Of a DNA stretch of 64,000 bases, positions 8,070-27,727 are shown piece after piece. The position numbers and the translations under genes are program-made. Origin of the DNA: Bacteroidetes bacterium RIFCSPLOWO2_12_FULL_35_15 (GTDB lineage: Bacteria; Bacteroidota; Bacteroidia; 2-12-FULL-35-15); the NCBI GenBank assembly GCA_001769385.1, contig MEPB01000026.1, forward strand, positions 18,392-82,391, written 5' to 3'. Each line of letters begins with the position of its first letter. The stretch's first letter is position 1. The notes under the pieces are model-generated. The model was not told the origin of the DNA. It ran no database searches and saw only the letters and a list, made by a program, of their open reading frames with translations.

Positions 8070-8774
8070 TTAATTCCCCAACGAAATTTTCGACAATTTT
8101 TTGACATCATTTATTTTCAAAGTGCGATTTTCAATTGAAACAATTTTATTTTGCGAAAATTCTGATAGCAATTTATAAATATAATTTTTTGTTGTTCCGA
8201 TAATATTTGCCAGATCCTTTATTGAATAACTAATTGTTAAGCTGTTGGTCTGGTTACCACTTTTATGTGAAAGCAATAATAATACTTCAGCCAACTGTTC
8301 TTTTATTCCTTTTTGAGCAATGCTAACCATTCGTTTTTCAATATAATCAATACGTTCGCACAGAAGCTTGATCATTTCAATTGAAATTTCAGGTTTCTTT
8401 TTTACGATAGTATCAATATCATTTTTAGAGATTAAACAAATTTTTGTTGATTCTACCGCCATTACCGAATAGGAGTAAACATCTTTATTTATAAAAGAAT
8501 CAACACCCAATAGATCACCGGGTTTAGCAAACCAAAAAATAAAGTCTTCTTTATTTTTTTTTGTTTGAAATACTTTCGCAATACCTTCTTTAATACAGAC
8601 AATCCCATTAAACACTTCCCCTTGCTTAATAATAATTTTATTTCTTGAAAATGTTATTTGTTTTTTTTCACTAAAAAAAGTATCCAAATCGTTGCTGGGG
8701 CAATTTTTAAAAATAGAAGTTTTTTTATGAACACATTTACTGCAGGATATATTGTTATCGTCTTTCATGGTCAT
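8070..8774 (-). CDS. Crp/Fnr-family regulator with N-terminal Cys motif
   Basis: cNMP-like N-terminal barrel and C-terminal HTH (YSIKDLANIIGTTKNYIYKLLSEF); N-terminal CSKCVHKKTSIFKNC. Confidence 0.85.
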   Translation of the reverse strand: MTMKDDNNISCSKCVHKKTSIFKNCPSNDLDTFFSEKKQITFSRNKIIIKQGEVFNGIVCIKEGIAKVFQTKKNKEDFIFWFAKPGDLLGVDSFINKDVYSYSVMAVESTKICLISKNDIDTIVKKKPEISIEMIKLLCERIDYIEKRMVSIAQKGIKEQLAEVLLLLSHKSGNQTNSLTISYSIKDLANIIGTTKNYIYKLLSEFSQNKIVSIENRTLKINDVKKLSKISLGN

Positions 8775-8900
8775 TCTACATTACATTTAACCTGTTGAAA
8801 ATGGTAAAATAAAGTGGTGTAAAGGTAGTTCAGGCTGGTTTCTTAAAACAATGACATGAATCATGAACATATTGTTGGTAAACAGAAGGCCTTTGAAATG

Positions 8901-9626
8901 TTATTCAGTGATATTTGCGATATGTAAAAGCTTGGGGATACTGGCTATTTTTATACGTTTTCCGATAAGTTTGATTACACGATCTCGATTAAATTCCGAT
9001 AAAATACGGATACAGGTTTCGGTAGATGTGCCGGCTATGTTTGCAATTTCTTCTCTCGTAAGCGTTGTGTTAATGGTTCCGGTAATACTATCCGTCCCAT
9101 AATATTCCTTTAGCATTAACAAAGCTTCAGCAATACGCTCTCTAACATGTTTTTGAGCCATATTCAAAATCATTTGCTCAGCTATTCGTAAATCCTTGGA
9201 GAGTAATTTTATTGTTTGCATTGAAAATTTCGAATTGTGATCCAATAATTCTTCTATGATATTTTTGGGAAAAGAACAAACTATTGTTTCTTCTATTGCA
9301 GAGGCTGAAGCGAAATAATTTTCCCCACTAAGAAGTGCCCTGTATCCTATCAAATCGCTTTTCTTTGCGAAACGAACGATTTGCTCTTTTCCATCATCCC
9401 CCAATTTGAAAATTTTTACTTTTCCGGAATAAATACAGAATAAATTTTGTGGTTGATGTCCTTCATAAAAAATAACCTGCCCTTTTTTATATATATTATG
9501 AACCTTATTATCAGAAAGACTTGCTTCTTCGGCAGAATTTGTTGAACAAAACATGGAAACATTGAATGCTTCACAATCAGAGCACCGAGGAACTTCAATT
9601 TTTTTTATTTTCTTTGCCATTGTCAA
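8901..9626 (-). CDS. Crp/Fnr-family regulator
   Basis: cNMP-like barrel, HTH LTREEIANIAGTSTETCIRILSEFNRD; N-terminal CSDCEAFNVSMFC. Confidence 0.88.
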   Translation of the reverse strand: MTMAKKIKKIEVPRCSDCEAFNVSMFCSTNSAEEASLSDNKVHNIYKKGQVIFYEGHQPQNLFCIYSGKVKIFKLGDDGKEQIVRFAKKSDLIGYRALLSGENYFASASAIEETIVCSFPKNIIEELLDHNSKFSMQTIKLLSKDLRIAEQMILNMAQKHVRERIAEALLMLKEYYGTDSITGTINTTLTREEIANIAGTSTETCIRILSEFNRDRVIKLIGKRIKIASIPKLLHIANITE

Positions 9627-9904
9627 ATTCGTTAATTACTATGCAAAGTAAATTAGAATCAAGGCTAAAAAAGATGATATTACTCATGTTTTAATATATT
9701 CTTAATGTTGAATTTTAAAACGAAATTTATTTAATAGAGAAAAGCAAGTAGTAATTGAATTTGATCTTCTGTATTCGTGCTTATTTTAATATAAATACCA
9801 TTGGTTGATATAGCATGTACAGGTATTTCTTTTCTTTCTTGCTCTCTCAAAAAAAGTGAGTTGGATGCCTTCAGTATTATTGGCAAACAAAATAATCTAT
9901 TTAT

Positions 9905-10621
9905 TTGAAACCTAAAATAATGGAAAAAACACTCAACAAAAATAATGATACTGCTATTCGAAATACGATATTATATGAATATTGTTCTGAAGAGTGGCAT
10001 CCGATTATTGATCACAACCAGATTATTTTAAATAAAAAAAAAGGAGAATTGATATTCTCTACAGGCGAACAAGTAAAAGGAATTTATATAATTATTAATG
10101 GGAAAGTTAAAGTAGTTTCTCCTTCTTTTAACAATGAAGAACATATACACCGGCTTACGGGAGATGGTAAAATATTAGGACATAGAGGTTTTTCTGCCCA
10201 ATACTATCCCATTTCGGCTATTGCACTTACTGATTTAACTATTGTTTTTGTTCCAAATGAGATTTTCAAAATTTTAATTAAAACAAATCCATCTTTAAGT
10301 TTCTATATGATCGAATTTTTTGCAGAGGATCTGAGGCAATCTGAAGAAAGGATGAAAAACTTAATGTATTCTGATGTTAAAAATCGTATTGCTAAAGTTC
10401 TATTAACATTGATCGATTCATTTGGATACGATGAAAAGGAACTGAATAAATTAAGCTATAGTTTATCCCGAAAAGATTTCGCAAGTATGGCTGGCGTTAC
10501 TTATGAAACTGTGATTCGAACCTTAAAAGACTTTCAGGATAAAAAGTTCATTAAACTGGAAGGAAAAGAAATTTTCATTATCAATCTAAATAGTCTTAGA
10601 GATTTCGTTTTTTCTAAATAA
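9905..10621 (+). CDS. Crp/Fnr-family regulator
   Basis: cNMP-like barrel, HTH LSRKDFASMAGVTYETVIRTLKDFQDK. Divergent from the 8901-9626 regulator. Confidence 0.87.
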   Translation: MKPKIMEKTLNKNNDTAIRNTILYEYCSEEWHPIIDHNQIILNKKKGELIFSTGEQVKGIYIIINGKVKVVSPSFNNEEHIHRLTGDGKILGHRGFSAQYYPISAIALTDLTIVFVPNEIFKILIKTNPSLSFYMIEFFAEDLRQSEERMKNLMYSDVKNRIAKVLLTLIDSFGYDEKELNKLSYSLSRKDFASMAGVTYETVIRTLKDFQDKKFIKLEGKEIFIINLNSLRDFVFSK

Positions 10622-10723: not shown

Positions 10724-12052
10724 TTATTTCAGAAAATTCGGTTTAAAGGTAATCATCACATAAGCCCAATTGCTTGTTTGGTCAGTACGTCCGTCACCTT
10801 TCCAATCTTTTACATTTTTAATTATTCCAATTGTTTCTGTTGGTAAAAAGTGAGAATAACCAGCAGTAATATTTACCCCACCGGGTAAAGTATAACCAAA
10901 AGTTAAATCAAATTCTGTTCCTAATGATGCACTCATTGCAGTAATTTTACCTGAGCTGATGGTTGCTTTACTATCCAATACATCAGCTGCAGCCATAAAT
11001 TCATGAACATCTAATGCGACATTCCATTTTTCTGTCTTGTATTTTAAACGTAAGATAATATCTTGTAATCCAACATTGTTTAAGTGATTACCCACATAAA
11101 AATAATCCATGTACCCATTGAATTTATGATTCGTTCCGAATACAGGATTGAATGAATGATTAACATCTTTGTATGCTGTATTTGTATCTGTCTGGCTTTG
11201 GCCGGATTGATATTCGTAACCTAAACCAACCGTAAATTTTTCTTTTAAGGTATATGCCAGATCAAACCCTCCCAACAAAGCAGCAACTTTTTTTGGTTTC
11301 CCTTTACTATTCAATGTAAGATCATCTCCGGCTTGATAATAAAAATTTAAGCCTGCGAATAAAGGTTTTGTTTTATATTCAATTCTTGTACCTGCGGTAG
11401 TAATGTATCTTGTACTATTAACAGAGACTGGAGATTGCTGACCAACATTCAATGCCAATAAACTGATGTTTAAACTTTTAATTTGCTTGTTTAACCATAA
11501 GTATTGCATTTCTTTATAACTTTTTGCAACAGAGTAGCTTGTACCAACCGTAGATGTGGCGTTTTGATTGTATGCTATTCCGGCATGAACAATAAAGGTG
11601 CTATCCATAAATTTAAAAACAAATGCGTCATGACTTCTTGCCTGTTGTGCCCAACCAACTGCTCCTAATATTCTTTCGTCATCATAACTTATTTCCTGAC
11701 GCCCCAATTTCATTGAAATTTTTGCATTAAAAGAATATTCTGCCCATCCTTCATGTAAACCAAATGATCCTCCTCCATCGCCCAAATTTAATTGTGATTG
11801 ATTCCCCCATACTCTCACATCCTGAAGTACAATTCCTGTTTTAAATTTATCTGCTTTATATCCAAAATTTAACCGGGTACGTTGAATAATAAATTGTGCT
11901 GATTTTTGAAGAGTATCTGCGGGAGATCCGAAACCGTGCAGATATTCAAAACGTGGGCGGAGTTCGCCTGTTAAAGTCATTTGAGCAATAGCTGCGGATG
12001 AGGAAATTAGCGTTGCTATCAGTAACCCTAACGGTTTTAATGCTGTTTTCAT
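10724..12052 (-). CDS. Outer-membrane beta-barrel porin (alginate-export-like family)
   Basis: Signal peptide; MTLTGELRPRFEYLHGFG...IIQRTRLNFGYKADKFKTGIVLQDVRVWG...ISMKLGRQEISYDDERILGAVGWAQQARSHDA; alternating barrel strands. Confidence 0.8.
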   Translation of the reverse strand: MKTALKPLGLLIATLISSSAAIAQMTLTGELRPRFEYLHGFGSPADTLQKSAQFIIQRTRLNFGYKADKFKTGIVLQDVRVWGNQSQLNLGDGGGSFGLHEGWAEYSFNAKISMKLGRQEISYDDERILGAVGWAQQARSHDAFVFKFMDSTFIVHAGIAYNQNATSTVGTSYSVAKSYKEMQYLWLNKQIKSLNISLLALNVGQQSPVSVNSTRYITTAGTRIEYKTKPLFAGLNFYYQAGDDLTLNSKGKPKKVAALLGGFDLAYTLKEKFTVGLGYEYQSGQSQTDTNTAYKDVNHSFNPVFGTNHKFNGYMDYFYVGNHLNNVGLQDIILRLKYKTEKWNVALDVHEFMAAADVLDSKATISSGKITAMSASLGTEFDLTFGYTLPGGVNITAGYSHFLPTETIGIIKNVKDWKGDGRTDQTSNWAYVMITFKPNFLK

Positions 12053-12115
12053 AGTTATTAATTTATAAATTACATTTTGTTTTTAAAATAGAGTAACCCT
12101 TTTAAATGAGTAATC

Positions 12116-13612
12116 TTAATGATCATAACGTTCTCTGTATTTTTTCGAATCTTCCTTCCGTTTCTGTATCTCTTCAGGGCTAAGTTTCCCGAGATACCAT
12201 TTATGCATCTCGCTGTTTAAAATTTCATTCAACGTTTTCTCCACTTTATCAGCAGCTTCTGTTTTCCCGTTTTTTCTTGATTTTTCAAGCAAATCCTGTA
12301 TTTCCGGGATCAATTCAGTATAAAATCTTTCAGCAACTTCAAAGTTACCGTGCCATTGCGTATAATCAGGTCCCATCATAGATGCACCCATTCTTGCCCT
12401 GCGACCTTCATGATGCCAAAGGTAGTAATACGTCCATTCAATTTTTTCATCAAAATCCAGAGCGGTTAATAAACCTTCCGATTTAAGTTGATTATAAATT
12501 TTGGTAGCCGGAATTCCAAATTTATCATTGTACAAGTTCACCTCATTATCATACTGTTTATAAAAATTTGCAACATAGTTAGCGGTATGGCATTGAGAGC
12601 ATACATTCTGCATTTGGGATCTCCGTTGGTCAGCAGTTAAAAACCCGTCAGGTAAAGGTTTTCCAGCTTTTTCAAATTTACTTTTCATAGCAAGATCTAT
12701 TTTTTGTGAAACGGGTGGGCGTAAAGTCCAGCTAATTCTATCACCAACATCATGAGTAATCTTCATGGTTGGAGTGGCACTGATATGACATGTGGCACAA
12801 GTAGGAGCAGCCGTATAATCGACACCTACAACCCATTTATCAGATGCAAGGTTCATTTTATCTTTATGCGCCCGGAAATTTACGCCATGTTTTGACTCGT
12901 TATAAATTTCTGCCTGAGGATGATCGGGTCCCATGTGACATTTACCGCAATTTTCCGGTTGACGGGCCTGTTCCTTAGAAAATGTATGTCTGTTATGACA
13001 GGCCGCACATGAACCTTTTGATCCATCTAAGTTTATTCTGCCAATACCTGTGTTTGGCCATGTTTTAGGATCAAACAAAGGGATGCCATTTGTATCTAGT
13101 TTTGTAAGTCCGTTTGCATCTTTTAAAAGTTCAACTTTGGAACCATGGCATTGCCAGCATCCACTTGCAGCAGCAGGATTGGCACCGTTGTTATAACTTG
13201 AATGTCCTTCCACTACTTCCGCTAAAACATTATCCAATGAACCCATTATCACCCCCGCATCCGCATGGTGACTTTTAGCAAATTGTGTAGTTTCCTCTTT
13301 GTGGCACATTCCACAATCTTTTGGTGTTACGATTGTAGCAATGTGTTCGCCATGATGATCAAATCCATCTATATCACTTTTTCCTGCATTATGACAATCT
13401 AGGCAGGTTACGCCTTCTTTAGAATGTCTGCTTTCTCGCCATTGCTCAACAATAGCTTTTCCATTTCCTGTTTTTTGATGACATTCAATGCATTTTGCGC
13501 TGGGGTCAGCTTCGCTGGAACCTGGTCTGCTTGTAAATGAAAATGCAAATACTGTGATAATAGTAATTCCTAAAAAACTGATGATACTCTTCTTATTTAA
13601 TTGTGTTTTCAT
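12116..13612 (-). CDS. Octaheme c-type cytochrome, hydroxylamine oxidoreductase (HAO)-like
   Basis: Signal peptide and eight CXXCH motifs (CIECH, CLDCH, CGMCH, CWQCH, CAACH, CGKCH, CATCH, CSQCH); HAO-like C-terminus YYLWHHEGRRARMGASMMGPDYTQWHGNFEVAERFY. Confidence 0.9.
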   Translation of the reverse strand: MKTQLNKKSIISFLGITIITVFAFSFTSRPGSSEADPSAKCIECHQKTGNGKAIVEQWRESRHSKEGVTCLDCHNAGKSDIDGFDHHGEHIATIVTPKDCGMCHKEETTQFAKSHHADAGVIMGSLDNVLAEVVEGHSSYNNGANPAAASGCWQCHGSKVELLKDANGLTKLDTNGIPLFDPKTWPNTGIGRINLDGSKGSCAACHNRHTFSKEQARQPENCGKCHMGPDHPQAEIYNESKHGVNFRAHKDKMNLASDKWVVGVDYTAAPTCATCHISATPTMKITHDVGDRISWTLRPPVSQKIDLAMKSKFEKAGKPLPDGFLTADQRRSQMQNVCSQCHTANYVANFYKQYDNEVNLYNDKFGIPATKIYNQLKSEGLLTALDFDEKIEWTYYYLWHHEGRRARMGASMMGPDYTQWHGNFEVAERFYTELIPEIQDLLEKSRKNGKTEAADKVEKTLNEILNSEMHKWYLGKLSPEEIQKRKEDSKKYRERYDH

Positions 13613-14841: not shown

Positions 14842-15513
14842 ATGAAACAGAAACTGATAATCCTAATTAGCCTTGTTTTATTTTCGTTTTCCGGAATAGC
14901 GCAGGATGGTCAAACTATTTTTACAACCAGATGCGCTGCATGCCACACAATAGGCAACGGACGTTTAGTTGGACCGGATCTTAAAGGTGTAAATAAAAAA
15001 TACAACTTTAAGTACCTCATAAAATGGATCAAATCTTCACAAACGGTTATCGCAACTGATGCAAAAGCAAAAGCACTATTTGAAGAATATAATTCAATTG
15101 TAATGCCTGACTTTTTGGATTTAAAGGATAGCGATATAAAAGGAATCGTAGATTATATTAAAACTCAAAGTGGTGAGGCAACAACAGCAAGTGTTTCAAC
15201 AGCACCAACAGAAGATAAAAAAAATACAACACCGGAAGTTTTGGCAAGTTCTTTAACACCTCAAAGCACAGAAGCAGCTCCAATAGAAGCAAAACAGGAC
15301 TTAAATACTGCTTCAACAACTAATAATTCTGCTACGGCAGCACCTGCTGTAAAAATAGCTGCCGCTTCTCTTATTGGAGAAAATTCATCAGAATCCCCTA
15401 TCACCTTAATATTAACATCAGTTACATTATTGTTGTTAGTAGTGGTTATGTTTATGGCTTTAAGGATCTTCATTGTTATCAGATCAATGGATAAAGAGAA
15501 TTCGGCAAATTAG
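14842..15513 (+). CDS. Membrane-anchored mono-heme cytochrome c
   Basis: Signal peptide, RCAACHTIGNGRLVGPDL heme motif, IVMPDF possible Met ligand, Ala/Thr-rich linker, C-terminal TM helix SPITLILTSVTLLLLVVVMFMAL. Confidence 0.88.
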   Translation: MKQKLIILISLVLFSFSGIAQDGQTIFTTRCAACHTIGNGRLVGPDLKGVNKKYNFKYLIKWIKSSQTVIATDAKAKALFEEYNSIVMPDFLDLKDSDIKGIVDYIKTQSGEATTASVSTAPTEDKKNTTPEVLASSLTPQSTEAAPIEAKQDLNTASTTNNSATAAPAVKIAAASLIGENSSESPITLILTSVTLLLLVVVMFMALRIFIVIRSMDKENSAN

Positions 15514-15557: not shown

Positions 15558-18500
15558 ATGGAAAGAAGAAAATTTATACGTAATGTTTCCCTGGCCGCAA
15601 TGGGGACAATTGTTTTATCTCAATTAGAAGCAAAGGGATTCAGCAAAGCATTTGCATTTTTTGATCCGGTTGATGTAAAAAACCCTCTTGCTGCTTATCC
15701 TAATCGCGATTGGGAAAAAACGTATCGCGACCTGTGGAAACATGAAAGTGAATTTACTTTCCTGTGTGCACCAAACGATACACATAATTGTTTGTTGAAA
15801 GCACATGTAAAAAATGATACAATCGTACGTATTGCACCAAGTTATGGGTTTTCTCATGCTGAAGATCTGCAGGGCAATAAAGCATCCGCCAGATGGGAGC
15901 CCCGATGCTGCCAAAAAGGATTGGCGCTACATAGAAGATTTTATGGCGACAGAAGGGTTAAATCTCCCGTTGCCCGTGAAGGTTTTTTGCTTTGGGTCAA
16001 AGATGGTTTCCCAAGAGAATCAAATGGTAAAGCTCCTGCAAAATATTTTGAAGGAAGAGGGAAAGAACCATTTGTAAAAATTACCTGGGACGAAGCGTCA
16101 GAATTAACAGCTAAAGTATTGCATAATATTGCCAGCACCTATAATGGCAAAAAAGGGCAGCAATTGTTGGAAGAACAAGGGTACGCTAAAGAAATGGTGG
16201 AAGCCACCCATGGAAAAGGCGTACAAGTTTTAAAACACAGAGGCGGAATGGCTGCATTAGGTGTTACCAGAATCTTTGGTATGAATCGGTTTGCAAATTC
16301 ACTTGCCTTGCTTGATGCAAAAATAAGTAAATGCAAACCTGATGAAGCAAAAGGCGCAAGAGCCTGGGATAGTTATGCATGGCATACAGATTTACCTCCG
16401 GGACATGCTATGGTAACCGGTCAGCAAGCAATGGATTACGATTTGGTTTGTGTTGAACATTCCGACAACATAATTGTTTGGGGGATGAACTGGATCACTA
16501 CAAAAATGCCGGATGCACATTGGCTCACTGAAGCCAGAATGAAAGGAGCAAAAGTTACCGTGATTGCTTGTGAATACAGTGCAACTGCAAACAAAGCAGA
16601 TAATGTACTTATTGTTCGCCCAGGTGTAACACCTGCTTTAGCATTAGGTTTTACACATGTCATCATCAATGAAAATTTATTTGATGCTGAATACGTGAAA
16701 AAATTCACGGATATGCCATTCCTGGTTAGAATGGACAATAACGAGTTTTTAAAACCGACTGAAGTAATAAAAGATTATCAGAATAAAGACATCGTGGATT
16801 ATATCCATGTGATGAAGGCTGACGAAAAACCAACTCCTATGCTTAAACAAGGAGGTACTTATGTTTCTGAAAAAGACAGAAAAGAGTGGGGTGATTTTAT
16901 GGTTTGGGATGAAAAATCAAATGCTGTTACGCCAATTTGCCGTGATGATTATGGTAAAAAGATGAATGAAAAAGGAATTTTCCCTTCCCTGGAAGGAAAG
17001 TTTAAAGTAACATTAACAGATGGAACAGTAGTTGAAGTCAGGACCGTTTTCGATTTAATAAAACAATATGTTAACGAAAACTTCACACCGGAAATCGTTT
17101 CTGAATTAACCTGGGCACCCATTGAAGGAATTAAATCCATTGCAAGGGGTATTGCTAAACATTCCGGAAAAACCTTATTCGCAATGGGGATGGGACCAAA
17201 CCAGATGTTCAACAATGCACTAAAAGACAGAACAGTTCTATTACTTGCATCCTTAACAAAAAACATTGGAAGAGTTGGTGGTAACGTGGGTAGTTTCTCA
17301 GGGAATTATCGTGCTGCGTATTTCAGCGGACTCCCTTCTTACATTCTGGAAAACCCTTTCAATATCCAAATGGAAGAGGGAAAACCTGCCGATGTTAAAA
17401 AATATTTCTCCTACGAATCAGCTCATTTTTTCAATAATAGCGATCGTATGCTTAAAGTGGGTAACAAAGTGCTGACAGGAGATACTCACATGCCAACACC
17501 TACTAAATCTATTATGGTTTCCAATGGTAATTCACTATTGGCAAATAATAAAGGACACTATGAAGCGGTTGTTAATGCCTATCCAAAAGTAGAATTTATT
17601 GGCGTATTTGACTGGTGGTGGACAGGTTCTTGCGAATATGCTGATATTGTTTTTGGTGTTGATTCCTGGGGTGAATTCAAATCACCGGATGCTACCATGT
17701 CGGTAACAAATCCATTCCTGTATATTTACCCTAGAACTCCTTTAGCAAGAATATATGACACCAAAGGTGATTTGGAAGCTATTGCCGGTATTGCAAAAGC
17801 AATGGGGAAACTAATTGATGAACCCAGGTTCACTGACTATTTCAAGTTTATGCATGAAGGAAAACCCGAAGTGTATCTACAACGGGTTTTTGATTTAAGT
17901 CCTGCAACAAAAGGGTACAATGTGTTGGAAACAGAAGCAAAAGCCAAACAAGGTATTCCCGCATTATTGATGTCGAGAACATATCCTAAACACAGCGGTT
18001 ATGAGCAAGTGGCAGAAGAAAAACAATGGTATACAAAAACAGGACGATTAGAATTTTACAGAGATGAAGCAGAATTTTTGGCCGCAGGCGAAAATTTACC
18101 TGTTCACAGAGAGCCTATTGACTCCACTCCTTATGAACCAAACGTAATTGTTTCAAATCCCCACCCATCTATCAAACCTGCATCACCAGAGAGTTATGGT
18201 GTTTCAAGAGATAACATGTCAGGTGATGTTCGCCAGGGAAGAAACGTTGTAAAATCCTGGAGCGATGAGAAATTAACCAAGCATCCATTGAATGCAGCGG
18301 ATAAAAATTATAGATTTGTTTTCCATACTCCAAAATACCGGCACGGAGCACATACCACCCCTGTAGATACCGATATTGTTGCCGTTTGGTTTGGCCCGTT
18401 TGGCGACATGCACAGAGCAGATAAACGTACACCATTCGTTACCGAAATGTATGTGGATATAAACCCGAACGATGCGAAGGCTCTTGGTGTTGAGGATGGC

Positions 18501-19034
18501 GATTATGTACATATAGATGCTGATCCGGAGGATCGTCCTTTCCGGGGATGGCAAGGAAAAAAAGATTCAGATGCATATGAACTATCCCGTTTATTGTGCC
18601 GTGCCAGATATTATCCCGGAACACCAATTGGAGTTCTGAGAATGTGGCACAACGCTTATGGATCTACTTACGGCTCTGTCAAAGCTTCGAAAAATAATCC
18701 AACAGGATTAGCAAAAAATGAAAAGACAGGTTATCAATCTTTATTCAGAACCGGATCACACCAAAGCTGCACAAGAGCTTGGTTAAACCCAACACTCTTG
18801 ACCGATTCTTTGGTGCGAAAAAATCATTTCGGACAAATGATGGGCAAAGGATTTGAACTGGATGTGCATGGAGCAACAGGAGCACCAAGAGAATCATTTG
18901 TGAAAGTAACTTTTGCAGAAAAAGGCGGACTTGACGGAAAAGGATTATGGGAAGGTGCAGAAAAAGGAATACGCCCAACGTACGAAAGTGATGAATTGAA
19001 AAAATTCATGAAAGGCGGATATTATAAAGCATAA
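15558..19034 (+). CDS. narG: Tat-exported molybdopterin oxidoreductase alpha subunit, type II DMSO reductase family (NarG/NXR-like nitrate reductase)
   Basis: Twin-arginine leader MERRKFIRNVSLAAMGTIVLSQ. WEKTYRDLWKHESEFTFLCAPNDTHNCLLKAHVKND, RCCQKGLALHRRFYGDRRVKSPVAREGF, KHRGGMAALGVTRIFGMNRFANSLALLDAKI, and WHTDLPPGH matching the Asp Mo-ligand region of type II enzymes. Confidence 0.85.
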   Translation: MERRKFIRNVSLAAMGTIVLSQLEAKGFSKAFAFFDPVDVKNPLAAYPNRDWEKTYRDLWKHESEFTFLCAPNDTHNCLLKAHVKNDTIVRIAPSYGFSHAEDLQGNKASARWEPRCCQKGLALHRRFYGDRRVKSPVAREGFLLWVKDGFPRESNGKAPAKYFEGRGKEPFVKITWDEASELTAKVLHNIASTYNGKKGQQLLEEQGYAKEMVEATHGKGVQVLKHRGGMAALGVTRIFGMNRFANSLALLDAKISKCKPDEAKGARAWDSYAWHTDLPPGHAMVTGQQAMDYDLVCVEHSDNIIVWGMNWITTKMPDAHWLTEARMKGAKVTVIACEYSATANKADNVLIVRPGVTPALALGFTHVIINENLFDAEYVKKFTDMPFLVRMDNNEFLKPTEVIKDYQNKDIVDYIHVMKADEKPTPMLKQGGTYVSEKDRKEWGDFMVWDEKSNAVTPICRDDYGKKMNEKGIFPSLEGKFKVTLTDGTVVEVRTVFDLIKQYVNENFTPEIVSELTWAPIEGIKSIARGIAKHSGKTLFAMGMGPNQMFNNALKDRTVLLLASLTKNIGRVGGNVGSFSGNYRAAYFSGLPSYILENPFNIQMEEGKPADVKKYFSYESAHFFNNSDRMLKVGNKVLTGDTHMPTPTKSIMVSNGNSLLANNKGHYEAVVNAYPKVEFIGVFDWWWTGSCEYADIVFGVDSWGEFKSPDATMSVTNPFLYIYPRTPLARIYDTKGDLEAIAGIAKAMGKLIDEPRFTDYFKFMHEGKPEVYLQRVFDLSPATKGYNVLETEAKAKQGIPALLMSRTYPKHSGYEQVAEEKQWYTKTGRLEFYRDEAEFLAAGENLPVHREPIDSTPYEPNVIVSNPHPSIKPASPESYGVSRDNMSGDVRQGRNVVKSWSDEKLTKHPLNAADKNYRFVFHTPKYRHGAHTTPVDTDIVAVWFGPFGDMHRADKRTPFVTEMYVDINPNDAKALGVEDGDYVHIDADPEDRPFRGWQGKKDSDAYELSRLLCRARYYPGTPIGVLRMWHNAYGSTYGSVKASKNNPTGLAKNEKTGYQSLFRTGSHQSCTRAWLNPTLLTDSLVRKNHFGQMMGKGFELDVHGATGAPRESFVKVTFAEKGGLDGKGLWEGAEKGIRPTYESDELKKFMKGGYYKA

Positions 19035-19090: not shown

Positions 19091-20221
19091 ATGGCAACAG
19101 TAAAAAATTGGCAACTAAAGAAGGATATGAAATATCCCTATGATGAAAGTCGCCCAAACAAACAAATAGCATATGTTTTTGATACCAACAAATGTATTGC
19201 GTGTCAAACATGCACAGTTGCTTGTAAAACTACCTGGACCTCCGGAAAGGGCGAAGAAACAATGTTTTTCAACAATGTGGAAACAAAACCTTATGGAGGC
19301 TATCCATTAAAATGGGATTTGAATACTCTTAAAATGATGGGCGAACAATCCTGGGACAAAGCAACAGGAGCTTATAAAGGCAAAACAATTTTTGATGATA
19401 CAAAAGGAGAAAATGTGAATGGATGGAGACCAGCAGAAAGAGACTATGCATTCCCCAACATGGGTGAAGATGAGTGTTCGGCTAATGTAAACAAAGGTGC
19501 GTTCTTCAGTGGAATTCATGATACCTGGATGTTTTATCTGGCACGCATTTGCAATCATTGCACGTATCCTGGCTGTTTAGCGGCTTGTCCGAGAAAAGCA
19601 ATTTACAAAAGACCCGAAGATGGAATCGTACTGATAGATGAATCTCGCTGCAGAGGATACAAAGAATGTGTCAAAGCTTGCCCGTATAAAAAAACATTTT
19701 TTAATATGGTAACCCGCACTTCTGAAAAGTGTATCGGCTGTTATCCTTTGATCGAACAGGGGGAACAACCACGTTGTGTTCAAACATGCATCGGAAAAAT
19801 AAGGATGCAAGGCTTTTTGAGCAAACCGGGAGAAGCAAAAGCAGACAACCCGATCGACCAAATTGTTCACATCAAAAAAATTGCCTTACCACTGTATCCT
19901 CAATATGGTACAGAACCAAATGTATATTACATTCCGCCAATTCATGTGCCAACAGATTTCTTGCACCAGATGTTTGGTCCCGGAGTTGACAAAGCAGTTG
20001 AGATGTATAAAAATCTTAAAAATGATCCGGATCTGCTTGCTGCATTTCTATTGTTCGGCAATACACCAAAAACAATTCATCATTATAAAAGAGAAGGTGA
20101 TTTCACCGTAGGATATAATGAAGCCGGAGAAGTGCTTACAAAAGTTCCAATGACTGAACCTGTTTATGTAAGACCTTATGATGATAAGGACCATGGAACA
20201 TTCAGACATAATACTCCCTAG
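19091..20221 (+). CDS. narH: Iron-sulfur beta subunit (NarH/NxrB/EbdB-like)
   Basis: Four cysteine clusters: CIACQTCTVACKTTW, CNHCTYPGCLAACPRKAI, CRGYKECVKACPYKK, CIGCYPLIEQGEQPRCVQTCIGK. Confidence 0.9.
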   Translation: MATVKNWQLKKDMKYPYDESRPNKQIAYVFDTNKCIACQTCTVACKTTWTSGKGEETMFFNNVETKPYGGYPLKWDLNTLKMMGEQSWDKATGAYKGKTIFDDTKGENVNGWRPAERDYAFPNMGEDECSANVNKGAFFSGIHDTWMFYLARICNHCTYPGCLAACPRKAIYKRPEDGIVLIDESRCRGYKECVKACPYKKTFFNMVTRTSEKCIGCYPLIEQGEQPRCVQTCIGKIRMQGFLSKPGEAKADNPIDQIVHIKKIALPLYPQYGTEPNVYYIPPIHVPTDFLHQMFGPGVDKAVEMYKNLKNDPDLLAAFLLFGNTPKTIHHYKREGDFTVGYNEAGEVLTKVPMTEPVYVRPYDDKDHGTFRHNTP

Positions 20222-20270
20222 GAAATAAAAATTAATTAAAAAAAATTGATACTTATTTAAAAAAATAAAA

Positions 20271-21158
20271 ATGAAGAAAACAATTTTTATTGCTGCAATA
20301 TCAGCACTTTCAGTGAGTTTGACAAGCGCACAGCCTGTTGCAATTATAATAAAATCAGAGAAGGTGACCGGCATCCCATTGCGTGAAGTAAATAACGCCA
20401 CATGGAACACAGCAACAGCATTTACTATTCCCGTGTTTCCACAAAACATTACTACTCCAATGTTAACTGCTCCCTCAGTAAAAAATTTAAAAGTAAAATC
20501 CATAAATGATGGAACTACTGTAGCTTTTTTATTGGAGTGGACCGATTCAACAAAAGATATTATTGTTGATGCAGATAAGTTCTGTGATCAGGTAGCAATT
20601 CAATTACCGATGCATCCTGATACTCTTCCGATTTTTATGATGGGTAATAAAAAAGGGCGCGTACATATTATTCACTGGAAAGGAATATGGCAAAATGATA
20701 TTGAAAACGGATTCCGCGATGTGAAAGATGCGTATCCGAATTACTGGGCAGATATTTATCCGATGGCCGAAAAACAAGGTGATGGAACCAATGGAAAATT
20801 TGCGAAAGATATTTCGGCACTTGATTATTCAAAAGGTAAAGGGAAAAATTTTATGCCTGCTTCTTATGCCGGAAACCCCATGTCGATCTTTGACAGAAAA
20901 GAACCATCAGAAGAATGTATGGCAGAAGGGTTTGGAACACTCACTACACAAACTAATCAAAATGCAACGGCATGGGGCGTTTGGGAAAATAATACCTGGA
21001 AAGTAATTTTTACCCGCCCGCTTGTTTCCAGCGACAAAGATGATGCCCCATTAACAGCTCCAACAAAAATTGCCTTCGCAATATGGAACGGACATTTTGA
21101 TAATATAAGCGGAAAAAAACATTACACTCAATGGATTGATTTTATCACTCAAAAATAA
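20271..21158 (+). CDS. Heme b-binding gamma subunit (ethylbenzene dehydrogenase/EbdC/NxrC-like)
   Basis: Signal peptide; VAFLLEWTDSTKD, DQVAIQLPMHP, WKVIFTRPL, KIAFAIWNGHFDNISGKKHYTQW; located directly after the beta subunit. Confidence 0.82.
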   Translation: MKKTIFIAAISALSVSLTSAQPVAIIIKSEKVTGIPLREVNNATWNTATAFTIPVFPQNITTPMLTAPSVKNLKVKSINDGTTVAFLLEWTDSTKDIIVDADKFCDQVAIQLPMHPDTLPIFMMGNKKGRVHIIHWKGIWQNDIENGFRDVKDAYPNYWADIYPMAEKQGDGTNGKFAKDISALDYSKGKGKNFMPASYAGNPMSIFDRKEPSEECMAEGFGTLTTQTNQNATAWGVWENNTWKVIFTRPLVSSDKDDAPLTAPTKIAFAIWNGHFDNISGKKHYTQWIDFITQK

Positions 21159-21164
21159 AAAAAA

Positions 21165-21734
21165 ATGAAAACTGTAATTGACAACAATTTAGTAAAAGCC
21201 GATTTGTTCAAAATACTGAGCATGGGCTTTTCTTACCCAAATCAGGAAAAATGTGATGATATGGAGTCTATCATTTTTGATCTGTTAAAAGATGCTGATC
21301 TGGATTTAGAAATTCAGGAGCAACTAAAATCCATTCAAAAAAATATTGATTACAAAGAAATTCTAAGAGAATATTCCAGAATATTTTTAAAAGGAACAAT
21401 CCCGACAACGGAAACCGCGGTTTGTGCAAAAATGAACTGTGTTGCTGATGTAGCAGGATTTTACAAGGCATTTGGCATGAATGCGAAAAGCGGTGATAGT
21501 CCCGACACGATAATCTATCAATTGGAATTTGCTTCCTTGCTCCTGGTAAAAATGGCTCTGGCTAAAGATGAAGAACACTCTTTTATTGTTCATGATGCCT
21601 ACCAAAAATTCATGAATGATCATCTAAAAGAGTTTGCTGAAAAATTTCAGGAAAAATTACAAAGCGCTGGCCCGATTGAATTTTACAATGGACTATCGAA
21701 TTTATTAATTTCAATCACTAAAAAACAAAACTAA
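21165..21734 (+). CDS. TorD/NarJ-like molybdoenzyme maturation chaperone
   Basis: All-helical ~190 aa protein with [35 protein letters not shown], following the gamma subunit in the operon. Confidence 0.75.
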
Positions 21735-21942: not shown

Positions 21943-22926
21943 ATGCTCCTGGATAATTTCAACCGTGTTCATGATTACCTGCGGATATCTCTTACTGATA
22001 AATGCAATTTACGATGCACCTATTGCAATCCCAATGATTTACCCAAAGGGATTTTTGCAAATGCCCCCCGCATGACTGCGGACGAAATTGATCAGATCGT
22101 TTCTGTTTTTGTGAGATCCGGAGTAAAAAAAATTCGGCTTACCGGTGGAGAACCGCTGGTAAGAAAAGATGCAAAAGAAATTATTCAACGCCTTTCAAAG
22201 TATCCGATTGAACTTGCCATTACTACCAATGGAGTTTATGTTGACGAATTTATTGAAACATTCAAAGAGGCAGGGTTAAGATCAGTGAATGTTAGTTTGG
22301 ATTCCCTGAACAGGGGCAAGTATTTTTCGATAACACAACGCGATGTTTTTGATCGTGTGCAGAACAATATAAATTTATTATTGGCGAACGATTTTCATGT
22401 AAAAGTGAATGTTGTACTGATGAAAAATATAAATGATACCGAAATTCTTGATTTCATTAATTGGACCAAAGAGCTACCGGTACATGTTCGTTTTATTGAG
22501 TTTATGCCTTTTATAGGAAACAAATGGAGTAGTGAAAAAGTAATTACACATCAACAAATACTGGATATTATTTCTTCGAAATATCATTTCATAAAATTAT
22601 TGAACGAAAAAAATGATACTGCCAAAAAATATTTTGTTCCGAAACATCAGGGCTCTTTTGCGATCATAAGTACCATGAGTGATCCTTTTTGCAGTGGTTG
22701 CAATCGAATGCGCCTTACCGCTGATGGTAAAATGTATAATTGCCTTTTCGCAAAAAATGAAACAGATCTGCTCTGTTCATTACGTCAGGGAAAAGATATA
22801 GAACCTCTCATACAAGAATGTGTTAAGGGGAAATCCCTTATGCTTGGCGGAAATAATGAAGAAGAAAACTGGGGGAACCAAACCGGTGAATCGCATGAAA
22901 GAACCATGATAAGCATTGGTGGATAA
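21943..22926 (+). CDS. moaA: GTP 3',8-cyclase MoaA
   Basis: DYLRISLTDKCNLRCTYCNP, RLTGGEPLVRKD, ISTMSDPFCSGCNRMRLTADGKMYNCLF. Confidence 0.97.
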   Translation: MLLDNFNRVHDYLRISLTDKCNLRCTYCNPNDLPKGIFANAPRMTADEIDQIVSVFVRSGVKKIRLTGGEPLVRKDAKEIIQRLSKYPIELAITTNGVYVDEFIETFKEAGLRSVNVSLDSLNRGKYFSITQRDVFDRVQNNINLLLANDFHVKVNVVLMKNINDTEILDFINWTKELPVHVRFIEFMPFIGNKWSSEKVITHQQILDIISSKYHFIKLLNEKNDTAKKYFVPKHQGSFAIISTMSDPFCSGCNRMRLTADGKMYNCLFAKNETDLLCSLRQGKDIEPLIQECVKGKSLMLGGNNEEENWGNQTGESHERTMISIGG

Positions 22927-22949
22927 ATTTTTATTAATTTCACATTATC

Positions 22950-24137
22950 ATGTTATCCGTAGAAAAAGCAAAACAAGCAGTTATTGAAAACGTAAGTTTA
23001 TTATCAGTCGAAAACATTCCGATTGAAAAATCTTATGGCTATGTTCTTGCCGAAGATATCTATTCTCCTCTGGCACTCCCTCCATTTAATCAATCTGCAA
23101 TGGATGGTTATGCTTTTATTTTCGATGACCTTAAAAATAAATTGCCACTAAAAATTATTGCTGAAGTGGCTGCAGGAAATCAGTATAAGGAAACATTAAG
23201 ATCAGGTGATGCTATTCGGATATTTACAGGAGCTCCTGTTCCCTTGGGCGCAGACTGTATCGTTATGCAGGAAAAAGTGAGAGTCGAAATAAATCTTTTA
23301 CATATACTTGATACAACCTTAAACCCTTATTCGAACATTCGACTTAAAGGATCGCAAATAGAAAAAGAGGAATTAGCGCTATCAAAAGGCACAAAGGTCA
23401 CAGCCGCTACCATAGGCTTTATTGCGGGCATGGGAATTACTTCCATTCAGGTTGTTCGCAAACCAAAAGTGAATGTAATTGTTACAGGCAGCGAATTGCA
23501 AAAACCGGGAAACCCTCTGAAGGAAGGTCAGATTTTTGAATCTAATTCATATAGTATAAGTGCTGCACTTAACAGCATGGATCTTTCAGCAGACAGAATA
23601 GAATCAGTGGCCGACAATGAAGTTGAAGTAAATGCAATTATTGCAAGATCGATTGAAACATGCGATGTATTAGTATTATCAGGTGGAATTTCCGTTGGTG
23701 ATTATGATTTTGTGGAAAGAGGATTAAAAAACAGTACCGTTGAACCTATTTTTTATAAAGTAAAACAAAAACCCGGCAAGCCATTATTTTTCGGCAAGTA
23801 TAAGAATACAATTGTTTTCGCACTTCCGGGTAATCCGGCAGCAGTATTAAGTTGTTTTTATAATTATGTTTATCCTGCTTTACGAAAAATGCAAGGTTTT
23901 TCCAGCCATTTTCTAAAATCAGTTAAACTTCCAATATCAACAGATTATCCAAAAAAATCAGGCTTATCAAATTTCCTTAATGCAAAAATGGACAAAGACA
24001 AGATACTTCCATTGGAAGGACAAGCTTCCTACATTTTAAGGTCATATGCCATTGCAGATAGTATTATCTACCTTCCGGAAGAAAGCGAAAACTTGAAAGC
24101 AGGCGAACTTGTGGAAGTCTTTTTATTGCCAAAATAA
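22950..24137 (+). CDS. moeA: Molybdopterin molybdenumtransferase MoeA
   Basis: LPPFNQSAMDGYAF, IFTGAPVPLGADCIVMQE, VIVTGSEL, LSGGISVGDYDFV, KPGKPLFFG, FALPGNPAAVL. Confidence 0.97.
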   Translation: MLSVEKAKQAVIENVSLLSVENIPIEKSYGYVLAEDIYSPLALPPFNQSAMDGYAFIFDDLKNKLPLKIIAEVAAGNQYKETLRSGDAIRIFTGAPVPLGADCIVMQEKVRVEINLLHILDTTLNPYSNIRLKGSQIEKEELALSKGTKVTAATIGFIAGMGITSIQVVRKPKVNVIVTGSELQKPGNPLKEGQIFESNSYSISAALNSMDLSADRIESVADNEVEVNAIIARSIETCDVLVLSGGISVGDYDFVERGLKNSTVEPIFYKVKQKPGKPLFFGKYKNTIVFALPGNPAAVLSCFYNYVYPALRKMQGFSSHFLKSVKLPISTDYPKKSGLSNFLNAKMDKDKILPLEGQASYILRSYAIADSIIYLPEESENLKAGELVEVFLLPK

Positions 24138-24257
24138 ATTTTTTGGCATGACTGATATCATTTTTTTAAAATCCAAACAACACCACCTTTGTTTAGTTAA
24201 TTGGCAAATAAATTTCGATTAATCCATATATTTTAAAGATAAAATAAATTTTTAATA

Positions 24258-24848
24258 ATGAGCCTCAAAAAAAACATAACAGGAGTAATTCTTGCAGGCG
24301 GTAAAAGCTCAAGAATGGGCACCGACAAAGGTATTTTGGAGCTCAATGGAAGGAAAATAATTGAACACATCATACACTCCATTAAACCGGTGGTTGACGA
24401 AATAATTATTATTTCGAATAGTACTAATTATGATTATTTAGGATTGAAAGTTTATAACGATATAATTAAAGAACGGGGCCCGTTGGCAGGAATACATACG
24501 GCATTAACATATACCTCCACTGAAAGAAATTTAATTGTGAGTTGTGATATTCCTTTTATAAACAGTGATCTTTTATCTTATATCGTAAATAATGCAGGAC
24601 GCTGTGAAGTTGCAATACCAATACACAAAGGGAATACGGAGCCTCTTTGCGCAGTTTATTCAAAAAAATGTACCGATCGGTTTGAAGAATTGATTTCTAA
24701 AAATATCTTGAAGATGCATAATGTCTTTCATCATTTTATTACAAAAGAAATTTTCATTTCAGAAAAACAATCATTTTATGATCCAAAGTTATTTGTAAAT
24801 ATTAATACTCCGGAAGAGTTAGATAAGCAAAAGGAGGTAGTGTTATGA
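24258..24848 (+). CDS. mobA: Molybdenum cofactor guanylyltransferase MobA
   Basis: GVILAGGKSSRMGTDKGIL, GPLAGIHTAL, VSCDIPFI. Confidence 0.93.
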   Translation: MSLKKNITGVILAGGKSSRMGTDKGILELNGRKIIEHIIHSIKPVVDEIIIISNSTNYDYLGLKVYNDIIKERGPLAGIHTALTYTSTERNLIVSCDIPFINSDLLSYIVNNAGRCEVAIPIHKGNTEPLCAVYSKKCTDRFEELISKNILKMHNVFHHFITKEIFISEKQSFYDPKLFVNINTPEELDKQKEVVL

Positions 24849-25078
24849 ACATAAACGTACTATTATTTGGTTCCCTGGCGGAAGCAACAGGGAAAAGTCA
24901 ACTGGAAATAAATAATGTTCTAGATACAGAAACATTGAGATCGAAATTACTAAGAGAGTTTCCGAAATTAGAAAAATATAAATTTGTAATTGCTGTTTGC
25001 AAACATGTTGTAAAATCAAACACCATACTTCATGAAGGCGACACCGTTGCCTTGCTACCACCATTTGCAGGAGGCTAA
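24845..25078 (+). CDS. moaD: Molybdopterin synthase small subunit MoaD
   Basis: Ubiquitin-like fold ending in ...EGDTVALLPPFAGG (C-terminal GG). Confidence 0.93.
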   Translation: MNINVLLFGSLAEATGKSQLEINNVLDTETLRSKLLREFPKLEKYKFVIAVCKHVVKSNTILHEGDTVALLPPFAGG

Positions 25079-25080
25079 GA

Positions 25081-26220
25081 ATGTTAAATCCAGAAGAACT
25101 TTTAAGATATAATCGCCAGATACGGCTCCCGGAAATTGGTGAAGCTGGTCAGGAAAAGTTAAAATCATCTAAGGTATTAGTGATTGGAGCAGGTGGATTA
25201 GGATGCCCTGTTTTACAATATTTAACAGCTGTTGGTGTTGGAACAATTGGCATTGTAGATTTTGACAAAGTTGATGAATCAAACCTGCAACGTCAGATCT
25301 TATATAGTGTTGATGATGTTGGGAAATTAAAAGTTGATTGCTCTGTTCGTAAACTTACCCGCCAAAATCCTCATGTGCGATTTATTACTTATAATCTGCA
25401 ACTTACCAATCAAAATGCGATTGATATCATCAAAAATTACGATATAATTGTTGATGGTACAGATAATTTTGCAACTCGCTACTTGTTGAATGATGCGTGT
25501 GTATTACTTGATAAACCATGGATATATGGATCCATTCACCGGTTTGAAGCTCAGATATCTGTATTCAATTATTTAAATAAAAATAAAATAAAAGGACCTA
25601 CCTACCGCTGTTTGTTCCCTTCCCCTCCATTACTTGAACTGGAGGGTAATTGTTCTGAAATTGGTGTTTTAGGAGTATTACCAGGTATTGTTGGAATGTT
25701 ACAGGCAAATGAAACAATAAAAATTATTACTGAAATAGGAGATATTTTATCTGGCGAATTACTTATTTTAAATGCACTTAATTTACAATTTCATACCATT
25801 GGTATTGAACGCAGTGAAACATCATTACAAGCGGTTCCGGTTTCAGAAGCCCAGTTTACTAAAACTGCCTATGGTCAATTTTGTAATACGGTTACAAAAG
25901 AGTTAAAACATGAAGTAAGTATCGAAGAATTACATCGCTTAATGTCAGAAAACAGGGAAAATATTCAGTTGGTTGATGTTCGCGAACAAAATGAATCACC
26001 ACAAATAGAAGAATTAAAAGAAATTAATATTCCATTAGTCGAAATAATTGATAAAGCTTACAACATTGACAGAAACAAAAAAGTTATTATTTTTTGTAAA
26101 TCAGGCGTACGTAGCGCTATTGCCATTCAGTTATTACAGAAAAAATTCGGAATGAAAAACCTGTTTACCCTCAAAGGTGGCGTTAATGAATGGCTGAGAT
26201 CTGTAAAAAACAAAATCTAA
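25081..26220 (+). CDS. moeB: MoaD adenylyltransferase MoeB/ThiF with C-terminal rhodanese domain
   Basis: RYNRQIRLPEIGEAGQEKLKSSKVLVIGAGGLGCP, NLQRQILY, VDGTDNFATRYLLNDAC; rhodanese VVIIFCKSGVRSAIAIQLL. Confidence 0.94.
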   Translation: MLNPEELLRYNRQIRLPEIGEAGQEKLKSSKVLVIGAGGLGCPVLQYLTAVGVGTIGIVDFDKVDESNLQRQILYSVDDVGKLKVDCSVRKLTRQNPHVRFITYNLQLTNQNAIDIIKNYDIIVDGTDNFATRYLLNDACVLLDKPWIYGSIHRFEAQISVFNYLNKNKIKGPTYRCLFPSPPLLELEGNCSEIGVLGVLPGIVGMLQANETIKIITEIGDILSGELLILNALNLQFHTIGIERSETSLQAVPVSEAQFTKTAYGQFCNTVTKELKHEVSIEELHRLMSENRENIQLVDVREQNESPQIEELKEINIPLVEIIDKAYNIDRNKKVIIFCKSGVRSAIAIQLLQKKFGMKNLFTLKGGVNEWLRSVKNKI

Positions 26221-26292
26221 AATTTCCTATTTAAACTACCAACAAAACACAATTTTTCTTTTCTTTGAGTACTATTTTTTGAACTCGATATT

Positions 26293-26736
26293 ATGACTGA
26301 GAAAAAAAAGCACAACGTTTTCATCCAGGGAGCAATTACTCCGAATTTTATTGCTGATAGCATTGCCAAACACAGTGGGAAAACAAATATCGGGGGACAT
26401 GATATTTTTTTAGGGCAAGTAAGAAATGACCTGATTGATGATAAAACTGTTGTTGCAATTGAGTATTCTGCTTATCTGGAAATGGCCGAGGAGCAATTTC
26501 ATGAAATCCGTGAAGCTGCTTTTACAAAATATAATTTAGTTTGCATGCATATTTATCACAGTTTGGGAGCAGTAAAAACAGGCGAAATATGTTTGTTTGT
26601 TTTTGTTTCCTCAAAACATCGTAAGGATGCCTTTGATGCTTGCAGAGATATTGTCGAACAAATCAAAGAAATGGTTCCTATTTGGGGAAAAGAAATTTTC
26701 GAAGATGAATCACATACCTGGAAAATAAATAAATGA
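26293..26736 (+). CDS. moaE: Molybdopterin synthase catalytic subunit MoaE
   Basis: GGHDIFLGQVRND..., AIEYSAYLEMAEEQFHEI, IYHSLGAVKTGEICLFVFVSSKHRKDAFDACRDIVEQIKEMVPIWGKE. Confidence 0.96.
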   Translation: MTEKKKHNVFIQGAITPNFIADSIAKHSGKTNIGGHDIFLGQVRNDLIDDKTVVAIEYSAYLEMAEEQFHEIREAAFTKYNLVCMHIYHSLGAVKTGEICLFVFVSSKHRKDAFDACRDIVEQIKEMVPIWGKEIFEDESHTWKINK

Positions 26737-26741
26737 GATGT

Positions 26742-26789
26742 GAGATAGGAGTATGGAGATGGAAGATAAATCTCAATACTCCTATCTCA
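26742..26789. repeat. Perfect 14-bp inverted repeat (TGAGATAGGAGTAT...ATACTCCTATCTCA, arms 26741-26754 and 26776-26789) followed by degenerate direct copies
   Basis: Arms read directly from the sequence; trailing copies tctcaatactcatatctcaatattc. Confidence 0.85.
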
Positions 26790-26815
26790 ATACTCATATC
26801 TCAATATTCAAAAAA

Positions 26816-27727
26816 ATGGTAGATATCACATTTAAATCAAGTACACATCGTATTGCAAAGGCACAAGCAATTGTAAAAGTAAGTAAACAAGAAACCATTG
26901 ATGCTATCGTAAACAAAAGCGTTCCAAAGGGTGATGTTTTTGAAATGGCAAAAACTGCCGGACTGTTTGCAGTAAAACGTACCAGCGATATGATACCCGA
27001 TTGCCATCCAATTCCGGTTGAATTCACCTCCGTTCATTACGATATCAAAGGACTGGAGATCACTATTGACATAGAAGTGCATACTATTTATAAAACGGGA
27101 GTAGAAGTGGAAGCCATGCATGGTGCATCTGTTATTGCACTTACCATGTATGATATGCTAAAGCCGATCGACAAAGGGATCGAGATTCATACCATTAAAT
27201 TATTGGAGAAAAAAGGGGGGAAATCCGACTTCATTGATAAATTCCGTATCGACTTAAAAGCCGCTGTAATTGTTTGTTCTGATACTATTTCGGCCGGTAC
27301 AAAAACCGACAAAGCCGGAAAAGCTATTATTAAAAAATTAGAATCTTGCAAAGTTGCTATTGCAGACTACTCTATAATTCCTGATGATACAAAAACAATA
27401 CAGGAAAAAGTATTGAGCTTGTATGCGTCTAAAATCGATCTTATTATTTTAACCGGTGGCACAGGCCTTTCGCCCCGCGACAATACACCGGAGGCAATAA
27501 AACCACTTTTAGACAGAGAAATACCCGGCATCATGGAAGCAGCACGTAACTATGGTCAGGACCGGACTCCATTTTCTATGTTATCCAGAGGCATTGCGGG
27601 AATGAAAGGCAACACACTTATTATTGCATTACCCGGTTCAACAAAAGGAGCACAGGAATCGATGGATGCTTTATTCCCTTCTATTTTACATATTTTCAGG
27701 GTTGTTGAAGGCGCACAACATTATTGA
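26816..27727 (+). CDS. moaC: Fused MoaC-MogA/MoaB (cyclic pyranopterin monophosphate synthase + molybdopterin adenylyltransferase)
   Basis: MoaC motifs [51 protein letters not shown]; MogA motifs [45 protein letters not shown]. Start moved to the Met after the inverted repeat. Confidence 0.93.

Follow-up and report, generated by a model that had tools for sequence, protein, structure and literature searches.

An octaheme cytochrome c encoded beside an NXR-type operon in a Bacteroidota genome: a probable nitrite reductase standing in for NrfA

The window, that is the whole stretch of 64,000 nucleotides that was analysed, carries genes for an octaheme cytochrome c (OCC) and a porin next to an NXR-like operon. 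The features concerned are as follows.

10724-12052, minus strand: porin gene, an ORF of 442 aa (PF13372 above cut-off; AF2 model with pLDDT 71; Foldseek)
12116-13612, minus strand: OCC gene, an ORF of 498 aa (eight CXXCH motifs; Multi-haem_cyto; tree)
12347-12418, minus strand: part of the OCC gene coding for the C-terminal block WHHEGRRARMGASMMGPDYTQWHG, residues 399-422 (family alignments)
14842-15513, plus strand: opening gene of the NXR-like operon, coding for a monoheme cytochrome c that has a hydrophobic segment in its C-terminal part (PF00034)
15558-19034, plus strand: NXR-type molybdopterin subunit alpha (best PDB match 7b04, Kuenenia NXR-A)
19091-21734, plus strand: NXR-type beta (Fe-S), gamma (heme b, EB_dh) and chaperone subunits (PF09459; TIGR03478, TIGR03477, TIGR03482)

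A sequence-only reading of the window had described an octaheme gene with a porin gene downstream on the same strand, adjoining an NXR-like operon. This layout was upheld: both ORFs are present, OCC first and then the porin after a gap of 63 bp, and the alpha subunit aligns with Kuenenia NXR-A along its full length (E 2.3e-254, residues 26-1156), as against about 110 bits only for NarG. Among the remaining NXR subunits, PF09459 was matched above the Pfam cut-off and the three TIGR families were matched below the NCBIfam cut-offs. The OCC gene is transcribed divergently from the NXR genes. Three CRP/FNR-type regulators lie side by side at 8070-10621, between an oxygen-independent HemN gene and the OCC/porin pair, and an Rrf2 regulator and a COX1/NnrS-like protein are also encoded near the locus. 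A run of molybdenum-cofactor genes (MoaA, MoeA, MobA, MoeB, MoaE, MoaC/Mog) is found at 21943-27727, directly downstream of the NXR operon. Scans for FNR boxes, promoters and terminators were at chance level with no FNR-box enrichment, an Rfam search gave no match, and a search of a plasmid collection returned distant homologues only (26-39%).

The eight CXXCH motifs claimed for the cytochrome were all counted (residues 41, 70, 100, 152, 202, 222, 272 and 338), with a chance expectation of 0.024 on average and 2 at most in 5000 shuffles. The protein matches Pfam Multi-haem_cyto at 1.6e-22, above the cut-off, and no NrfA-type pentaheme cytochrome c552 domain was found in it using Pfam. When PDB sequences were ranked, 4qo5, which we take to be the Ignicoccus hospitalis octaheme cytochrome c IhOCC, came first (phmmer 2e-46; profile E 8e-70), followed by HAO/HDH structures. 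A fold search with a mediocre AF2 model also gave 4qo5 first, then 6h5l, titled as a reducing HAO-like complex. With a pLDDT of 66, and its lowest values near residues 185-280 and 411-418, this model is too weak for active-site geometry to be read from it.

A search through bacterial and archaeal genomes yielded 245 OCC relatives, the best 80 of which were kept; among these, sequences from Bacteroidota and Chlorobiota were 60-72% and those from many other phyla near 50%. In a sample taken within the phylum some match was found in 49 of 396 genomes, with strong and long matches in a handful only. In a tree whose rows were the OCC family and Scalindua paralogues, the OCC family was split from the Scalindua HAO/HDH paralogues with support of 100/99, and the window OCC joined a protein (L002, 72%) of a Bacteroidetes MAG inside a Bacteroidota/Chlorobiota clade. 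The protein had been placed in the HAO/HDH/epsilon-Hao superfamily, and this stands (Multi-haem_cyto, 4qo5); in the tree it falls outside the HAO/HDH clade. As judged from its sequence, the window OCC is a member of the reductive Ignicoccus/eHao-like branch. All of the best 80 of the 245 relatives have the Asp-His pair that aligns with HAO D267/H268, and the window gene is intact with the invariant residues of the family kept. Two Scalindua OCC paralogues (L097, L098) are longer, with additional residues between hemes 7 and 8.

The cleavable signal proposed for the cytochrome was borne out in part: the N terminus has a hydrophobic stretch and no clear cleavage site, and the N termini of relatives resemble either an anchor helix or a lipoprotein. 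The window OCC is accordingly predicted to be periplasmic or membrane-anchored. A lipobox-like Cys in four relatives (L016, L018, L020, L021) suggests lipid-anchored forms; no adjoining Rieske/cytochrome b genes were found for these, on contigs that are partly short.

The C-terminal block WHHEGRRARMGASMMGPDYTQWHG is present as described, although it had been held typical of the HAO/HDH/epsilon-Hao superfamily and is instead a signature of the OCC subfamily, not common to the Scalindua HAO/HDH paralogues. The tyrosine of its GPDY motif (Y417) had been put forward as the crosslinking Tyr of a P460-type heme. HDH, HOX and HAO have the crosslinking Tyr in common (PMC12758564), and on that basis residue 460 of a Scalindua HDH (L083), the only invariant Tyr across five oxidative-type Scalindua paralogues, was taken to be this residue. 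In all nine alignments with the full OCC set its column met W420 (seven) or Q419 (two) and never Y417. In three alignments that contained just six OCC rows the C-terminal block was misplaced, and these were discounted; an hhalign profile alignment did not settle the placement of the block. Among the best 80 of the 245 relatives W420 is invariant, whereas residue 417 is Y in 65, I in 11 and W in 4. Y417 was thus ruled out as the crosslinking Tyr, since the Tyr column falls on W420/Q419 and Y417 is variable in 15 of the 80, and the P460 Tyr crosslink is expected to be absent from the window OCC. Without the crosslink reduction is held to be favoured (PMC8940962; PMC12758564), so reduction would be favoured over oxidation here, and the hydroxylamine- and hydrazine-oxidising options of the earlier reading are disfavoured.

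The neighbours of OCC genes in relatives also fit a reductase role, since they deliver electrons from quinol. In Bacteroidota and Chlorobiota the genes usually run Rrf2 – porin – Rieske – cytochrome b – OCC – NapA – NapG – NapH – NapB. NapA scored 1423 bits, which is above the equivalog cut-off, and Pfam confirmed NapB, Rieske and cytochrome b. In other phyla the OCC often occurs with a tetraheme protein, an NrfC-like Fe-S protein and NrfD. At the loci of the best 80 of the 245 relatives, Rieske/cytochrome b was counted in 18, NapA in 15 and NrfC/NrfD in 24, figures that are lower bounds because many contigs are short. An NXR-type enzyme was found beside the OCC in none of these 80 loci within the stretch read, and the L002 OCC adjoins an alternative complex III. 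The porin–Rieske–cytochrome b–OCC–Nap operon was seen in L003, L006, L007, L009, L010, L012, L014 and L022; in such operons the N terminus of the OCC is anchor-like, and the protein may replace cytochrome c1 of a bc-type complex.

The porin matches Pfam Alginate_exp at 7.7e-14, its model has 18 long strands, and a Foldseek search with this model gave AlgE structures as its first 16 matches. With the AlgE exporter it therefore has in common an 18-strand barrel, the Pfam family and the top structural matches, but identity is 14%, its context is one of nitrate/nitrite enzymes, and no alginate genes were recognised among the listed ORFs neighbouring it. It clusters (100/100) with the NXR-linked porin of a congener (G002) and not with the porins of OCC–Nap operons. 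The congener's porin is 68% identical, and its gene immediately precedes those for cytochrome c and NxrA on the same strand, in a colinear porin–cytochrome c–NXR arrangement (L128, 7330-12344) without any OCC. For this reason the porin is not OCC-specific, and the idea that it is a dedicated partner of the cytochrome was given up. This porin type recurs with a nitrate/nitrite enzyme as its partner, whether or not an OCC is present, and the gene context suggests that the porin probably passes nitrate and nitrite.

Across the 36 searched genomes of the genus, window genome included, NXR occurs in five and OCC in one, being absent from the 35 congeners searched; G002, G006, G017 and G019 have the NXR alpha subunit (70-96%) and no OCC. 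The monoheme cytochrome c is colinear with NxrA in G002 and G006. Since congeners have the NXR, and one of them the porin beside it, without OCC, and the window porin is of the NXR-linked type, the OCC appears to have joined a pre-existing NXR–porin region. Co-regulation of OCC and NXR is not established, given the divergent transcription and the absence of OCC from the 35 congeners. In the stretch that HemN, a CRP-type regulator and OCC occupy in the window, G002 has a cytochrome c and NorB/CcoN-like pair, flanked by a CRP-type regulator and proline dehydrogenase.

No NrfA had been seen in the window, and none is present in the genome as a whole (99.4% complete), in which NapC/NrfH, NirK, NirS and Hcp were also absent; the nitrite reductases searched for were NrfA, NirK and NirS. 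The NapC/NrfH family PF03264 had no match anywhere in the genome, and a complete alternative complex III (ActABCDEF) is encoded on contig 105. The earlier suggestion of an HAO-superfamily enzyme in place of NrfA is strengthened by these absences and by the relatives found in nap operons. NrfA-independent nitrite reduction by the OCC is likely, nitrite being the presumed substrate, and we consider it probable, with some confidence, that this Tyr-less, presumably periplasmic OCC is a nitrite (and hydroxylamine) reductase standing in for NrfA in a chain of NXR, OCC and alternative complex III.

In such a chain nitrate and nitrite would cross the outer membrane via the AlgE-like porin, if these are its cargo, and the adjoining periplasmic NXR-type enzyme would convert nitrate to nitrite, a direction suggested by its nitrite-reducing neighbour. 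The OCC would then use heme 4 to reduce this nitrite, most likely to ammonium, with menaquinol electrons passing to it through alternative complex III, which is proposed as the donor because NapC/NrfH is absent and the Rieske/cytochrome b module of relatives is missing from the window locus. Ammonium is a plausible product and not a certain one, as Tyr-less HAO relatives can make NO or may make hydroxylamine. Against the nitrite-reductase reading, the native octaheme of orange Beggiatoaceae oxidised hydroxylamine and hydrazine in vitro besides reducing nitrite, and Ca. Thioglobus, which has a homologue, failed to grow on nitrite (PMC6449678). The wider proposal, that a Bacteroidota NXR of the kind known from anammox bacteria and nitrite oxidisers acts as a periplasmic nitrate reductase whose nitrite goes to a Tyr-less OCC fed by alternative complex III, giving ammonification without NrfA or the Nap of its relatives, is put forward tentatively, its chances being slightly less than even.

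It is also conceivable, if unlikely, that the OCC stops at NO or hydroxylamine when it reduces nitrite, or serves to detoxify these compounds, and does not perform full respiratory ammonification. Kuenenia HAOr, which has no crosslink, makes NO from nitrite, according to work cited in PMC12758564, and the CRP/FNR-type and Rrf2 regulators and COX1/NnrS-like protein near the locus, together with the NorB/CcoN-like pair in the equivalent stretch of the congener, would be in keeping with this. However, the genome has no Hcp to finish a hydroxylamine route, and the Nap and quinol-oxidising modules of relatives (Rieske/cytochrome b or NrfCD) point to respiration. An oxidative route, amounting to partial nitrification without amo, in which the OCC would convert hydroxylamine to nitrite or NO and the NXR would turn nitrite into nitrate, is very improbable. 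In its favour, the adjoining NXR is closest to the anammox enzyme, and the native octaheme of orange Beggiatoaceae oxidised hydroxylamine and hydrazine in vitro (PMC6449678); against oxidation, the crosslinking Tyr is absent, the OCC lies outside the HAO/HDH clade, and the OCCs of relatives stand with NapA and quinol-oxidising modules. That the OCC was recently gained beside the NXR by chance, with no functional tie to NXR or porin, would agree with its narrower occurrence in the genus (1/36 as against 5/36) and with the type of the porin, yet is scarcely credible for an intact gene, with the family's invariant residues kept, whose position, next to the one nitrate/nitrite enzyme seen in the region, mirrors the Nap linkage of relatives with another enzyme.

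As a nitrite reductase in place of NrfA, the OCC would belong to a group that is overlooked by surveys of nitrate ammonification, in which nrfA is counted and Tyr-less octaheme enzymes escape notice. Such enzymes frequently carry the annotation hydroxylamine oxidoreductase and are mistaken for a sign of nitrification. The locus also bears on the direction of NXR outside nitrifiers.

Among known systems, IhOCC (4qo5) is the best match to the window OCC in both sequence and fold and has an octaheme arrangement in common with it; it is said, in the work of Parey et al. from 2016, to lack the crosslink and to reduce nitrite and hydroxylamine. It differs in being archaeal rather than bacterial, with identity of about 26% when the folds are aligned, and in having Val in the place of the pocket His of GPDH. 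An IhOCC-like paralogue of Scalindua (L100) forms a long branch in the OCC tree. The eHao of Campylobacterota is a reductive, Tyr-less octaheme that replaces NrfA and has HaoC, of the NapC/NrfH type, as its partner. The window OCC is alike by description, being Tyr-less, putatively reductive and in place of NrfA, but no NapC/NrfH/HaoC-type gene (PF03264) is found in its genome. HAO and hydrazine dehydrogenase share with it the superfamily, the eight hemes and the conserved Asp-His pocket pair, and differ in having the crosslinking Tyr and in forming a separate clade, while the TvNiR type has CXXCK at the active-site heme, unlike the window OCC, in which heme 4 is CWQCH and all eight motifs are CXXCH. 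Nap, Rieske/cytochrome b and eHao occur together in Caldithrix abyssi, which has no NrfAH and for which alternative complex III is a proposed donor (PMC5317091). Caldithrix and the Rieske/cytochrome b–OCC–Nap operons (L003-L022) have in common with the window a Tyr-less octaheme beside a periplasmic nitrate-reducing enzyme, a role the window NXR would fill, and both the Caldithrix and the window genome lack NrfA and have alternative complex III as a possible donor. The window locus differs from these in having NXR-type alpha, beta and gamma subunits in place of Nap, and no Rieske/cytochrome b. The kind of enzyme, and the replacement of NrfA by it, are thus known, and what is new is the pairing of an OCC with an NXR-type enzyme.
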